Source of the DNA: a virus
Virus record (IMG/VR): IMGVR_UViG_3300020455_001391
Coordinates: 1 to 39,623 of that record
DNA length: 39,623 nt
Direction: 5' to 3' (one strand)
Of this stretch, positions 1 through 39,623 are shown one piece after another. The position numbers and the translations under genes were made by a program. How positions within the stretch are numbered: the first letter of the stretch is position 1; every line of letters starts with the position of its first letter. Below the pieces are notes generated by a model. The model was not told the origin of the DNA and did no database searches. It was given only the letters and a program-made list of their open reading frames with translations.

Positions 1-972
1 TTAAGATGGATTTAATTTTTGCTGCTCTAATAATGCCATTCTTGCCTCCAAGTTGTTCAAACGGCTGAATAAATCGCCTGGGCGCGGAATCTGGCGGCTT
101 ATCACTGCTTTAAATTCCCATGTCTCCAGAATCTGCTCACTTTCGAGAATGATTGGCGGATATTCTCCGTTTTTATTGTCGGAGTTACAAATCAGCTTAT
201 TATTCTCTCTGATCCGGTTGAGGCAACGCTTCACTATTATTCCCTCATCCCGGCTGATAACAACGTAAACCCGCCAATCTATTACCTCTAAGGGGCTTTC
301 AACATATTGGGCTATTACAATGTCGGACGGGTATAGACCTCGCCCCTCTTCTGCGAGCATAGAGTAACCTTGCACCTCAAAAGCCCTAAAAACCCCGTTT
401 TGAAGCGTTGGGACGCCAAAAGCCGGAAGACTTTCAATGTACTCAGGATCGTGAAGACCTACTAAATAGCCTGCGGCTGCCTTTACTGGTACAAAAATGA
501 TGTTCTCAGCTCCAGAATTATCTACTGTAACGAGCACGGGTTTGCTGATGACCTTAGTATATGCCTCTTGTGGCTCTCTGACAAGGGGTAAGGTAGAATG
601 TTGTGGATTTGAATTGATATTAGGCTCTACCTTACCCCTGACCTTACCCGTAACCTTACCCTCTTCTGTGTACACCTTTTTTGTAGTGGAATTGAATTGT
701 TTTTCAGATAATAGGTGTACATCATGAGGGTTAGATAGGTGTACATCTTTTTCAGGCTTAATCATATCACCTTTTCCGGTGATTAACCACTCTATATTGA
801 TATCAGGGTATTCATGGATAATTTTCGATATCCACTTACTCTGAATATCAGTATCATTCTTAAAAGCACGGCTAATAGCACCGCTAGAGACACCAATACT
901 TAATTCAAATTGGCGAATGCTGATATCTTTCGATACCACATAATCCCTTAAACGGCTTACTATTTGCGACAT
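1..972 (-). CDS. LexA/CI-type phage repressor (S24 peptidase)
   Basis: Likely immunity repressor of the prophage. Residues 1-70 form a helix-turn-helix domain (SIRQFELSIGVSSGAISRAF near 18-37). Residues 75-150 are a variable linker with repeats. The C-terminal half is an S24 peptidase: Ala-Gly cleavage site in AAAGYL (about 165-170), catalytic Ser204 in GYSM and Lys248 in IIVKRC. It faces left and diverges from the early operon, as Mu c does, but Mu c is not of this family. By family knowledge, RecA-stimulated self-cleavage would couple induction to DNA damage. The stop codon is the first three bases of the window, so the gene is complete; 323 aa. Confidence 0.93.
   Translation of the reverse strand: MSQIVSRLRDYVVSKDISIRQFELSIGVSSGAISRAFKNDTDIQSKWISKIIHEYPDINIEWLITGKGDMIKPEKDVHLSNPHDVHLLSEKQFNSTTKKVYTEEGKVTGKVRGKVEPNINSNPQHSTLPLVREPQEAYTKVISKPVLVTVDNSGAENIIFVPVKAAAGYLVGLHDPEYIESLPAFGVPTLQNGVFRAFEVQGYSMLAEEGRGLYPSDIVIAQYVESPLEVIDWRVYVVISRDEGIIVKRCLNRIRENNKLICNSDNKNGEYPPIILESEQILETWEFKAVISRQIPRPGDLFSRLNNLEARMALLEQQKLNPS
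586..747. repeat. Short repeats inside the repressor linker
   Basis: Three tandem copies of ACCTTACCC begin at 629, 641 and 653 (exact 12-bp period), with an inverted copy at 586-594. A 13-bp direct repeat (ATAGGTGTACATC) lies at 711-723 and 735-747, and its core recurs inverted near 669-677. They encode the GKV/TGKV/RGKV and DVHL repeats of the linker. They may be linker expansions or extra binding sites; the sequence does not decide. Confidence 0.7.
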
Positions 973-12961: not shown

Positions 12962-13834
12962 ATGATTAAGATTGACACATACTTTGTAGGTGGTGGCCTC
13001 TTTGATCTGGGGTTGGTTCGCTCCGGGCTGACTATTAACAAGTCTTATGAGATAGATAAGATTTGTTGCAAGGTGTACAAACGGAACTTTGATCATGAGG
13101 TAATACAGCAGGATATAACCAAGAAACTCGTTCTTTCTGACGAGAGGGCTGATGTAATGGCCTTTACATATCCATGCACCAAATACTCTACAATAGCCGA
13201 CATTCACGGTACTAGAACGGGCGATGAGTTGTTTCTACATGCTTTCCGTCACATGGCCATAGGCAGGCCGGAGATTTTTGTTGCTGAGAATGTTCCGGGA
13301 ATGCGAGCCTTTCCGATTGTAATGGAGGCCATGACAAAACTGCCCGATTATTACGTTGCGGTTTTTTGTCCTGTTAAGGCTGAGTATTGGCTACCTCAAA
13401 GGCGAGACAGGTTGATCATTATCGGCAGCCGCAGGCCTTTTAACTGGCGGCAGCCAGAACAAAAGCTTAGAACTCGTTTGGCTGATATAGTTGAAGAGAA
13501 TCCTCGTATTACATGGCCTGAGTCTATTAGAACAAGAATGACGGGAGGTTACAGGGATTTACCGATAATCAGCGACCCAAAGGCGGGAGATATAGCTCCT
13601 ACTTGCGTGGCTCACTATTCAAGAGATAAAAGTACTCGCCTTTTGAAGGATAAAAGGTTTCCAATGGGCGTTCGCCCTTACTCTGTCCGGGAGTATGCAA
13701 GGTTGCAAGGTGTTCCTGATGAATTTGAGTTCAATTGCAGCGACACAGCAGCATATAGAATTATCGGAAATGGTGTGCCTGTTCCTATGGGTGAATGGGT
13801 TGGTAATGAAATTCAAAGGTATTTTAGAAGATAA
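12962..13834 (+). CDS. DNA (cytosine-5) methyltransferase
   Basis: Methylates C5 of cytosine in a specific DNA site, probably for defence against host restriction; no partner endonuclease is visible, so it looks like an orphan phage enzyme. Motifs appear in order: I FVGGGLFDLGL (8-18), IV TYPCTKYS with nucleophile C72, VI AENVPGM (E109), VIII PQRRDRLIIIG, IX RPYSVREYARLQGVPDEF and X IGNGVPVPMGEWV. Motif IV reads YPCT instead of the usual PPCQ. The target-recognition region between VIII and IX is short. 290 aa. Confidence 0.92.
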   Translation: MIKIDTYFVGGGLFDLGLVRSGLTINKSYEIDKICCKVYKRNFDHEVIQQDITKKLVLSDERADVMAFTYPCTKYSTIADIHGTRTGDELFLHAFRHMAIGRPEIFVAENVPGMRAFPIVMEAMTKLPDYYVAVFCPVKAEYWLPQRRDRLIIIGSRRPFNWRQPEQKLRTRLADIVEENPRITWPESIRTRMTGGYRDLPIISDPKAGDIAPTCVAHYSRDKSTRLLKDKRFPMGVRPYSVREYARLQGVPDEFEFNCSDTAAYRIIGNGVPVPMGEWVGNEIQRYFRR

Positions 13835-13845
13835 TGCCATTGAGG

Positions 13846-13864
13846 CAGGCAAAAGGCCTGTTTT
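13846..13864 (+). terminator. Intrinsic terminator after the cytosine methylase gene
   Basis: CAGGC (13846-13850) pairs with GCCTG (13856-13860) around AAAAG, followed by TTTT. It lies 11 bases after the methylase stop. The short stem makes it weak to moderate. Confidence 0.55.
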
Positions 13865-13896
13865 GAAATTTGAAAAATATAATGGTACTTTGCTCT

Positions 13897-14030
13897 TGAC
13901 AACACGATGCAAGAGTAATCTTGAATCATTTTATTGACAATATAGGAAGCCCCTATACGGTGTCCCGGAGGAAACAATGGGAAATCCGACTCTTGTAGTC
14001 GTGTTGTCACACCTAAGTAGCGGGCTTTCC
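13897..14030 (+). promoter_or_regulatory. Putative C4-type antisense/leader RNA region of the antirepressor
   Basis: Two upstream segments are complementary to two downstream ones in the order a, b, a', b'. Segment 13897-13907 pairs with 13999-14009 (11 bp) and continues as 13910-13916 with 13989-13995 (7 bp); 13945-13952 pairs with 14022-14030 (8 bp, one bulge). The downstream segments lie in the first codons of a leader ORF (start 13977) that overlaps the antirepressor start. TATAGG/CCTATA (13941-13957) forms a local hairpin. This is the layout of the c4-icd-ant control of phage P1/P7. Confidence 0.5.
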
Positions 14031-14084
14031 TTGCTTTTAAAACTTTTCGATAATGACAACAGGAAAGGAATTGAAAGCGTTTAG
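13977..14084 (+). CDS. Leader ORF overlapping the antirepressor start
   Basis: A 35-residue hydrophobic reading frame (MGNPTLVVVLSHLSSGLSLL then a polar tail). It has a strong GGAGG (13967-13971) five bases before ATG, while the antirepressor start at 14053 has none. It overlaps the antirepressor start in a different frame and ends 30 bases inside that gene. That suggests translational coupling, like icd of P1. A functional peptide is not required by this model. Confidence 0.45.
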   Translation: MGNPTLVVVLSHLSSGLSLLLKLFDNDNRKGIESV

Positions 14085-14715
14085 GTTCAACGCAGAGAAT
14101 CAGGAGATCAGAACTCTCATGATCGACAATGAACCTTGGTTTATTGCAAAGGATATTTGCAATGTGCTAGGCCATACTAATAGCAGAGTCGCAATTCAAA
14201 TGCTGGATGATGACGAACGGGGTAAGGAAAGTTTACCCCGTCAAGGTCAAACTTGGATTGTGAACGAATCAGGTTTGTACAACCTGATATTCCGCAGCAA
14301 CAAGCCAGAGGCTAAGGCTTTTCGTAAATGGGTAACGGGTGAGGTTTTGCCTCAAATTCGCAGAAATGGCAGTTACACGCCTAAACAGGTAGCCAAAGAA
14401 GTGATTGATGCCCGCTGCCAAGCCTACGAAACCACGGAGATCAATGGCCGGGAAGTTCGGGTTATTGATATTGATGGCACAGACTACTACCATTTAAAAG
14501 ATGTGATCAATGTGGTTGGCTCTGCCACAGAAACACAGCAAACGGCCAAAAAGCTGAATGCTGTTAAGCCTCTTGCCCGAAAAATCTGGATTTACGGAGT
14601 TAACTATCCGAGCTGGTTTACCAATAGGCTTGGGGTTGATTTGGTGCTTTCTGCCAGCCGTAAGCTGCGCAGCGAAAGACAGGTGTTATTGCTGGAAGGA
14701 GGTAGTTATGAGTAA
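14053..14715 (+). CDS. BRO-N family antirepressor
   Basis: A 220-residue protein with an N-terminal BRO domain (about 5-115): FRFNAENQEIRTLMIDNEPW, FIAKDICNVLGHTNSRVAIQ, DDDERG, WIVNESGLYNLIFRSNKPEAK and FRKWVTGEVLPQIRRNGSY are all classic. The C-terminal half probably supplies partner specificity. BRO-N proteins of temperate phages bind and inactivate repressors, so it may act on the S24 repressor at 1-972. Its expression is likely controlled by the structured leader upstream. The stop overlaps the next start by 8 bases. Confidence 0.88.
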   Translation: MTTGKELKAFRFNAENQEIRTLMIDNEPWFIAKDICNVLGHTNSRVAIQMLDDDERGKESLPRQGQTWIVNESGLYNLIFRSNKPEAKAFRKWVTGEVLPQIRRNGSYTPKQVAKEVIDARCQAYETTEINGREVRVIDIDGTDYYHLKDVINVVGSATETQQTAKKLNAVKPLARKIWIYGVNYPSWFTNRLGVDLVLSASRKLRSERQVLLLEGGSYE

Positions 14716-14962
14716 GAGAGTTGTTGTGGCCGATGCTCCTCAGAAGCTGGATTTGTACACTTTTATGCATTGTATGAGGGTGTTTAGCGGTTGGTATTTT
14801 AACAACGATGTAGAACTGTTTGCCAGCCGCTGCATTAGCAGTCAGGTTTTTGGGCAAACCCAGTTTAAAACGGTTGAAGAAATGCAGCATGTTTTGAGAC
14901 TCAGGACGAAATGTTTGGTACATCCAGACATTACTCCTGAGGTTGTGTTTGAAAATCAGTAA
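14708..14962 (+). CDS. Small phage protein, unknown function
   Basis: An 84-residue protein (MSKRVVVADAPQKLDLYTFM) not recognised as a known family. ATG 14708 is set by GGAGG at 14699-14702 and the 8-base overlap with the BRO gene, so it is probably co-expressed with the antirepressor. Longer readings would run far inside the BRO gene. Confidence 0.7.
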   Translation: MSKRVVVADAPQKLDLYTFMHCMRVFSGWYFNNDVELFASRCISSQVFGQTQFKTVEEMQHVLRLRTKCLVHPDITPEVVFENQ

Positions 14963-17126: not shown

Positions 17127-17157
17127 AGCTCAAGGACTTAGTTCTTGAGCTTTTTTT
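17127..17157 (+). terminator. Plus-strand intrinsic terminator inside the minus-strand late operon
   Basis: AGCTCAAG (17127-17134) pairs with CTTGAGCT (17144-17151) around nine bases, followed by seven T (17151-17157). The T run works only for rightward RNA, antisense to the head operon. It overlaps the last codons of the F-like gene. In the other direction the stem has no T run. Confidence 0.7.
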
Positions 17158-18502
17158 GTACCCAATGCTCAATGCTGTTGTCTATATAGGCCTGTCGGTC
17201 TATGCTGACAACCTTCTCTTTATAAATGAATGTGATGGCGGTTATCTTGCCATCTTTATCATTATAAAAGGCTCTTCGAATGCCATTCGATAGGTTATCG
17301 AAGTCTATTTTTTCAGGTAGTGTAATAACTACCAACTCAGCTCCCTGGCCTCTTGCTTTAGCTACCCTTCTGTTGATTGTGTTAATCAATTTACTATTGG
17401 GTTCTACAGCTTTGAAGTCTGCGATTATTCCGCTTACTAGCGCATCGGGGTTTTTAACACCTTGCTCTATTACAATAGGCTGAAGTACTACAGCATCTGC
17501 ATTCTTGTCAGCCAATGCTTTAGCAGCTTTTAGGTTATCGCTCAGCTCGCTATCTCCATGATCTTTATGTCTAGCCACAAAGCCTCCGGTTTCTTTGTTC
17601 TTATGCTCTATTACATAATTATCTGACTTGGTGACTCGCTGCCATTCCTTAAAGATGTTCTTGATCTTGTCCGGGTTGGCGGGTAGGTCTAAGTTCCAGT
17701 TTTGTTTAGACCACTGTTCGAACTCTTTTTGAACTTCGAAGTAAGGGTGAAGCTCACTAAACACACGCCCATTCGTAGGGTCTTCAAGGAATTCGTCCTT
17801 AATGTCTGAGGTGTCGGGTGTCGCGTCTGTTAGCTCTTTGTCGGTAACCCTCCAGCTGCACTGGCACAAATAGCCGTTAGGCGGTAAAATAGATCTTCCC
17901 TCGGTTGTGGTAAGTGAGAATACTTTACCGTAGTACTTTTTATGATCTTCTCTTGGGTCTGCTGCTTTGGATTTGATGTACTCCCAGTTCGGATATAGAT
18001 CAGTGTTCTCCAATGCCTTTTGCAGGTTGTTACCAGTGCGAGCTCTGCGAACAGCAAGAAGGTATTCAGTGTTCAGCCAGCGTTTATTATAGTCTTTACT
18101 GATGGTTAAAGCTTCTTTCTGAAACTTACTGAAGGGCTTTATTTGGCCGTTATCATCGAACAATAGACTTGCAATGGCCTCTGTGTTGTGATGGTTTTTG
18201 AAAGCTGCAAACACGTGTACGTTGTACTTGTATTGAAGCAAAAGGCCGTGGTTTGGAGTGCCATATTCCACCGCTCCAAAACCTGTTTTAGTTCCTTTCC
18301 AGAGTGCGAGTGCTTGCTGTTCGAACAAAGGGAGGTCTATCTGGCCGCCTACGAGCTTACGGTCATAGATTCGTTTGGCAGCTCTGCGGATGAACCTTTC
18401 CCAAGGGAAAAGGTCTGCGGTTTCTGCGGACACAATCCCCCCGCCCCCCTTCATCAAGGGGGAGTGTTCGTGTGAATCGCAGAAATCCGAATAAAAGGCC
18501 AT
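17138..18502 (-). CDS. Mu F-like head morphogenesis protein with C-terminal nuclease-like domain
   Basis: A 454-residue protein. Residues 35-225 form the Phage_Mu_F minor head region, ending in the typical ILPPNGYLCQCSWRVT. Residues 280-450 are a separate domain: ARHKDHGD near 310, a helix, a strand ending in QPIVIEQ, then NPDALVSGIIADFK (351-364), helix and two strands. P352-D353 with D362-F-K364 fits a PD-(D/E)xK nuclease core and resembles contact-dependent-inhibition toxin C-termini. Residues 11-30 are encoded by a dispersed repeat (18437-18464). Capsid assembly is the main role; the nuclease could act on host nucleic acid or be injected. Confidence 0.82.
   Translation of the reverse strand: MAFYSDFCDSHEHSPLMKGGGGIVSAETADLFPWERFIRRAAKRIYDRKLVGGQIDLPLFEQQALALWKGTKTGFGAVEYGTPNHGLLLQYKYNVHVFAAFKNHHNTEAIASLLFDDNGQIKPFSKFQKEALTISKDYNKRWLNTEYLLAVRRARTGNNLQKALENTDLYPNWEYIKSKAADPREDHKKYYGKVFSLTTTEGRSILPPNGYLCQCSWRVTDKELTDATPDTSDIKDEFLEDPTNGRVFSELHPYFEVQKEFEQWSKQNWNLDLPANPDKIKNIFKEWQRVTKSDNYVIEHKNKETGGFVARHKDHGDSELSDNLKAAKALADKNADAVVLQPIVIEQGVKNPDALVSGIIADFKAVEPNSKLINTINRRVAKARGQGAELVVITLPEKIDFDNLSNGIRRAFYNDKDGKITAITFIYKEKVVSIDRQAYIDNSIEHWVQKKLKN
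18437..18464. repeat. GC-rich palindromic repeat inside the F-like gene
   Basis: A CCCCCCGCCCCCC run, then a TCATCA centre flanked by CCCCCT and AGGGGG. It is typical of dispersed palindromic repeats in Bacteroidota. It encodes the odd N-terminal SPLMKGGGGI stretch of the F-like protein, in frame. Confidence 0.65.
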
Positions 18503-38816: not shown

Positions 38817-39623
38817 ATGGTGCGACAAAAACCGCGTCTTAAGACGCCAATTACTTATTATGGAGGCAAGCAGCAAATGCTGCAACATATCCTTCCGCTC
38901 ATTCCTGAGCATAACACTTACACCGAAGCTTTTGCAGGTGGATTAGCTGTTTTCTGGGCTAAAGAGCCTGTTAAGTGTGAAGTGATTAATGATGTAGATC
39001 AGGAGATTGTAAACTTCTACGAGATTATAAGATCGAACCCTGAAGGCTTTCAGAATGAAGTCAATAAGACCCTTCATAGTCGTAGTCAATACGAGGATGC
39101 TTTAACTATTTATCACAACCCACACATGTTCTCTAAGGTAAAAAGAGCATGGGCGTTTTGGATACTCACTTCCCAAGGTTTTGTGAGTAAGATTGGCACA
39201 TGGGGATATGATAAAGAGGGCAAGCAGCCTCTTAGAGTAAACGGTAAAAAGCATCTTGATTTAACACCTTATACCGAGCGATTAGAGCGTGTGACAATCG
39301 ATAATAATGATGCCTTGAGGATCATTTCAGCACATGACTCCAAAGAGTGTTTTCACTACATCGACCCACCGTATATTTTTTCTAATCAAGGCCATTATAA
39401 TGGGTATAACGAGAGTGATTTTGAACGACTTTTAAGCCTACTCAGTAAGATAGAGGGTAAATTTATGCTGTCTAGCTACCCTAGTGAAATCTTAGAAAAG
39501 TACACGAAACAAAACGGATGGGTTACCTTTAAATTTACGAAACAACTGGCTGCAAGCAAGTCTGGTAAGGGTAAAAAGGTAGAGGTTTTAACCTTGAATT
39601 ATGATTGTGGAATAGGTGGGTAA
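38817..39623 (+). CDS. D12-class adenine-N6 DNA methyltransferase (Dam-like)
   Basis: Methylates adenine N6 in DNA. The 268 residues have the D12 layout: YYGGK (14-18), motif I EAFAGG (37-42) for S-adenosylmethionine binding, a middle specificity region and motif IV DPPY (183-186). No partner nuclease is seen. It lies at the right end of the phage, after the fibre gene, where Mu has com-mom, so it is likely the late-expressed anti-restriction gene. The start follows an A-rich leader. The stop codon is the last three bases of the window. Confidence 0.92.
   Translation: MVRQKPRLKTPITYYGGKQQMLQHILPLIPEHNTYTEAFAGGLAVFWAKEPVKCEVINDVDQEIVNFYEIIRSNPEGFQNEVNKTLHSRSQYEDALTIYHNPHMFSKVKRAWAFWILTSQGFVSKIGTWGYDKEGKQPLRVNGKKHLDLTPYTERLERVTIDNNDALRIISAHDSKECFHYIDPPYIFSNQGHYNGYNESDFERLLSLLSKIEGKFMLSSYPSEILEKYTKQNGWVTFKFTKQLAASKSGKGKKVEVLTLNYDCGIGG

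Follow-up and report, generated by a model that had tools for sequence, protein, structure and literature searches.

The closest described systems to the one considered here come from P4, P1, and Gifsy-1. In P4, the CI RNA pairs with seqA and seqC, leading to transcription termination (PMC4825925), and in P1, Ant is blocked by the c4 RNA (PMC8198154, PMC8546580). In the isrK-orf45-anrP locus of Gifsy-1, activation by a 5' RNA has been demonstrated with mutants (PMC4825925).

The window analyzed here is the whole of a 39,623-nucleotide stretch of viral DNA (IMGVR_UViG_3300020455_001391, positions 1 to 39,623), and the region of interest spans 13,897-14,084. The phage carries Mu-like transposition genes and a Mu-type portal gene. 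A first-pass annotation of the sequence suggested that a C4-like antisense RNA controls a BRO antirepressor in this region. That suggestion finds good support in homology to the c4-2 RNA family, covarying targets, a BRO gene downstream, and a phage repressor gene, although the roles given to the individual segments had to be reassigned. It is likely that the BRO antirepressor is controlled by a c4-2-type antisense RNA switch. The relevant features are as follows.

1..972, minus strand: phage repressor gene (phrog_4 transcriptional repressor, E 2e-13)
13862..13892, plus strand: putative Bacteroidota-type promoter (TTTG at 13862-13865, a 20-nt spacer, and TACTTTG at 13886-13892)
13897..13916, plus strand: segment A, the predicted upstream target (formerly segment a), with 18 of its 20 nt complementary to B
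13944..14031, plus strand: c4-2-type RNA, assigned from the Rfam match, its fold, the folds of relatives, and two-sided changes
13977..14084, plus strand: 35-codon ATG leader ORF with GGAGG at 13967-13971, overlapping the BRO start at 14053
13989..14009, plus strand: segment B, the predicted antisense segment (formerly a'), comprising the second hairpin and the 8 nt before CACC within the c4-2 RNA
14053..14715, plus strand: BRO-N/Ant-type antirepressor of 220 aa (PF02498, E 2e-28; phrog_130 anti-repressor Ant, E 1.8e-48)
14054..14061, plus strand: segment C, the predicted downstream target TGACAACA, overlapping the BRO ATG and complementary to 14002-14009

The c4-2-type RNA and its predicted targets

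The first-pass annotation proposed a scan with the Rfam C4 model. An Rfam scan returned c4-2 (RF02944, clan CL00128) at 13947-14029, spanning model positions 1-79 of 79 with 36.0 bits (E 2.7e-6), which is below the 41-bit gathering cut-off; at the gathering threshold the window has no match. Where matches from one clan overlap, the Rfam scan lists only the best member, here c4-2, and this applies to C4 (RF01695). Minimum-energy folding of this stretch gives the c4-2 structure, with the consensus features of the family: a closing stem, a GGUG/CACC helix, a hairpin with a GAAA-type loop, and a second hairpin. The closing stem joins 13944-13956 to about 14017-14031 and includes GGAAGCCC at 13945-13952, complementary to GGGCTTTCC at 14022-14030 with one bulge. 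Inside it, GGUG at 13959-13962 pairs with CACC at 14010-14013. The b/b' pairing reported earlier is thus present, but it is this closing stem and not a second antisense and target pair. In the window no terminator is called after the closing stem and the T-tract there is poor; a T-tract follows the stem in many relatives.

Segments A and B are complementary well beyond chance expectation. TGACAACACGA at 13897-13907 matches TCGTGTTGTCA at 13999-14009 at 11 of 11 positions, and a 7-nt run (CAAGAGT with ACTCTTG) extends the pairing. Its score of 40.5 compares with 15.7 +/- 2.5 in dinucleotide shuffles and is reached by none of 2000, so the complementarity of 11 plus 7 bp reported for a and a' is confirmed. 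The exact A and B sequences of the window were sought in viral contigs and none were found. Segment a had been taken as the antisense element; it is reread here as the upstream target at what is probably the 5' end of the transcript, near 13897, because A begins 4 nt past a Bacteroidota-type -7 box. That box, TACTTTG, lacks one base of the TAnnTTTG consensus. In nearly all relatives A begins 3-5 nt 3' of a TTTG-type box, and at one locus (L099) the promoter-like box is complete, TTTG-20-TAGATTTG. A short RNA ending before 13977 had also been proposed, but the c4-2 match would place the antisense RNA at 13947-14029.

The third copy of the complementary sequence, TGACAACA at 14054-14061, was missing from the first-pass list. 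The targets had been assigned to the first codons of the leader ORF, but the downstream target lies at the BRO start codon. In the window, C alone is not significant in a shuffle test that leaves its position free (129 of 2000), and anchored comparative tests are therefore needed. The locus has an antisense segment complementary to both a 5' and a 3' target in one putative transcript, and an antirepressor as the regulated gene in what, from the sequence, appears to be the same operon. Both are expected of a C4/CI system.

The leader ORF has its GGAGG and its overlap with the BRO gene, which starts at 14053 without a Shine-Dalgarno sequence, as first described. However, the GGAGG (13967-13971) shares nucleotides with the conserved apical loop GGAAAC of c4-2 (13970-13975), and ORFs spanning the corresponding region in relatives vary in start, frame, and length, with several loci having none. 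The ORF is probably not a functional element. The proposed likeness to c4-icd-ant holds in that the leader of an antirepressor gene contains an antisense RNA, but not for an icd-like coupled ORF, since the 35-codon ORF is not conserved among relatives.

The repressor encoded at 1..972 is the presumed target of the BRO antirepressor. Directly 5' of the module, at 12962-13834, is a DNA methyltransferase gene of the C5 cytosine type, and a second one of the D12 adenine type lies at 38817-39620. A small ORF at 14709-14962 overlaps the end of the BRO gene and has GGAGG directly before its ATG; a longer ORF that reads through it (14558-14959) has no match in Pfam and PHROGs scans. On the minus strand at 17138-18502, a Mu F-like head protein carries a CdiA_C domain at its C terminus.

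Conservation among related loci

BRO relatives were drawn from viral contigs and genomes, and c4-2 matches from the records of these relatives and from 395 Bacteroidota genomes. The window and seven other loci (L099, L102, L103, L104, L105, L106, and L135) form a CACACC-type set of eight. The same three-way junction is predicted in all eight RNAs, and two-sided changes are found at 7 of 14 consensus pairs of the c4-2 structure. In this set the nucleotides preceding CACACC can pair with a stretch that begins at the TG of an ATG, over 8 nt in the window, 10 in L099 and L106, 8 in L104, 7 in L135, 6 in L102 and L103, and 4 in L105. In L099 the paired ATG precedes the BRO start by 10 nt and is in a different reading frame. 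In most loci examined a start codon is 19-28 nt 3' of c4-2.

The sequences of the eight loci differ while the complementarity of A, B, and C is kept. When B was permuted among them, the true partners were the unique best of 40,320 arrangements, for A and for C. Across 40 loci that include P4 and P1, a locus's own A ranked first in 14 cases and its own C in 9, where 1 is expected. The joint changes in A, B, and C suggest a separate pairing code for each phage.

A scan upstream of 73 BRO genes found an A-B-C triple (score at least 16) in 16, compared with 0.27% of 1095 shuffles; some of the triple-bearing loci are near-identical and so not all are independent. The first-pass annotation had staked its case on whether relatives keep the complementarity. 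It is kept in the nearest BRO relatives (L002/L056 and L057) and is shorter in L058, but many more distant BRO loci had no A-B-C triple in this upstream scan. The triple also occurs at BRO loci without an Rfam match (L003, L006/L062, L007, L008, L063, L065/L067, and L071). The closing stem and hairpins at these loci are unlike those of c4-2, which suggests further structural classes of C4-like RNA. Five c4-2 matches (L108, L115, L118, L132, and L134) show no clear A-B-C arrangement; these are weak matches or tandem copies.

Some genomes carry several copies. In the group L109-L136 (genomes G092, G237, G241, G273, G289, G312, G352, G383, and G391) a single genome can hold as many as six c4-2 copies, and most have a conserved 77-aa ORF (MSTNTLSKETELRL...) 19-25 nt downstream. 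The first 60 aa of one copy of this ORF gave no Pfam and no PHROGs match. The A/B/C octamer differs between most copies in this group, as if several antisense circuits ran in parallel in one genome.

The sister transposable phage L144 has a portal 78% identical to that of the window and lacks the BRO gene, and it likewise has no c4-2 match; in the sister records BRO and c4-2 are missing together. The window transposase was sought in the records with the nearest BRO genes, giving one weak match and otherwise none. The module therefore behaves as a cassette common to different elements. L144 also has no C5 methyltransferase match within the stretch examined.

A proposed lysogeny switch and its alternatives

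The case for a c4-2-type switch is made by the fold, identified by homology, by the complementarity and covariation of A, B, and C, by their placement at a promoter-like box and a start codon, and by the identity of the antirepressor. From these observations we infer transcription, processing, action in trans, termination, and action of BRO on the phage repressor. A single promoter just 5' of A would give a transcript that runs from A through c4-2 with B to C and BRO. The c4-2 domain would fold into its three-way junction and yield a short RNA, by processing or by termination at or after the closing stem. Acting in trans, B of this short RNA would pair with C, covering the BRO start codon, and with the A segment that opens each new transcript. 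BRO would be silenced by termination and/or by occlusion of its start codon, and the lysogen would stay immune, comparable to the P4 CI RNA with seqC and seqA. Pairing of A with B in cis would cross the c4-2 fold and disarm the antisense RNA, so that BRO is made. Pre-existing c4-2 RNA bound to A would block this cis pairing and favor the c4-2 fold in new transcripts, making dormancy self-sustaining.

Folding energies bear on several of these steps. A:B pairing and the closing stem cross and are therefore in competition, in agreement with the earlier remark that the order of the segments allows a pseudoknot in cis. For the leader of the window, A:B pairing reaches -48.0 kcal/mol and the c4-2 fold -38.0 kcal/mol, a preference of 10 kcal/mol. 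A:B is also the predicted leader fold in L103, L104, and L135, while in L099, L102, L105, and L106 the best fold is not A:B and differs from the c4-2 fold by no more than about 4 kcal/mol. With A:B not predicted in four of eight loci, a cis switch is not general by the folding criterion. For none of the eight CACACC-type loci does co-folding predict a net gain when C is paired. Together with the free-position result for C alone, this suggests that start-codon occlusion may be weak, and repression may instead depend on A, termination, or a host protein.

The preference for A:B in the window, and its crossing of the closing stem, would also suit a leader that works purely in cis, in which alternative A:B and c4-2 folds of the mRNA set BRO read-through or translation without a diffusible antisense RNA. 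We consider this quite improbable, since C at the start codon, which covaries in eight loci, is not needed for an A:B switch, and since the P4 and P1 relatives act in trans (PMC4825925; PMC8546580). A different use of the same strong A-B duplex would follow the IsrK pattern: a short 5' RNA containing A would activate in trans through B, opening the leader ORF and with it coupled BRO translation. Gifsy-1 isrK-orf45-anrP provides a precedent in which mutants support activation (PMC4825925), and in the window a short ORF preceded by GGAGG overlaps BRO. Because Gifsy-1 shows that such an ORF can matter, this explanation is kept in view. It is nonetheless unlikely: relatives do not conserve the leader ORF, the GGAGG lies partly within the conserved c4-2 loop, A is not followed by a terminator, and the copy at the start codon, C, is left without a role.

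It could also be argued that the repeat acts in DNA, as an invertible promoter or an operator pair, and that the RNA pairing is incidental. Bacteroidota commonly have invertible promoters, and here the arms of a perfect 11-bp inverted repeat lie 91 nt apart beside a promoter-like box. However, B sits within a conserved RNA fold and a third copy lies at the start codon; the sequence varies freely from locus to locus, whereas its placement with respect to ATG and CACACC does not change. These features make a DNA-level role extremely improbable.

Wider occurrence and known systems

With moderate confidence, we suggest that the BRO antirepressors of Bacteroidota phages are often under A-B-C antisense modules, where A is the start of the transcript and the RNA pairs onto the start codon. 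These modules would fall into several structural classes, of which Rfam knows c4-2 only, and some flavobacterial-type genomes would carry several, with their own pairing codes, before the 77-aa protein. Targets are here assigned to the Rfam family c4-2; the literature search found no paper describing any, the original c4-2 report being outside its reach. The own pairing codes may define RNA-based immunity groups, and the lysogeny switch of such phages becomes testable with short reporter constructs.

P4 and P1 served as controls. Both have Rfam C4 matches, and copies of A and C were recovered from each in the same way. In P1 (AF234172) the copy TTGACAGCCTGAATGTTAGTG lies just 5' of C4 (48337-48422) and is complementary to the P1 C4 RNA, indicating that an A element is present in P1 too. 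An upstream complementary copy in P1 has been named a1/b1.

Among described systems, the c4-2 family of Rfam is matched in both structure and sequence over its full length and, like the present locus, belongs to Bacteroidota genomes, with the window scoring below the gathering cut-off. The Gifsy-1 isrK-orf45-anrP locus shares a 5' RNA, a short ORF overlapping the antirepressor start, and mutual complementarity. There, however, the 5' RNA activates translation, whereas in the window A is not followed by a terminator and the short ORF lacks conservation among relatives. In c4-icd-ant of P1/P7, too, the leader of an antirepressor operon contains an antisense RNA with complementary copies on both sides. 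Their RNA belongs to Rfam C4 and not c4-2, and in P1 icd lies between c4 and ant, whereas the window RNA is predicted to act directly on the start codon of the antirepressor, and relatives showed no conserved leader ORF. P4 (seqA-cI-seqC) has the same order, with a target in the 5' part of the transcript, the antisense RNA in the middle, and a second target before the regulated gene. It differs in that its RNA matches the other Rfam family, C4 (RF01695), in that kil and replication genes are regulated instead of an antirepressor, and in that its A is farther upstream. The switch proposed here would extend the antisense immunity layout of P4 and P1 to a Mu-like Bacteroidota phage.
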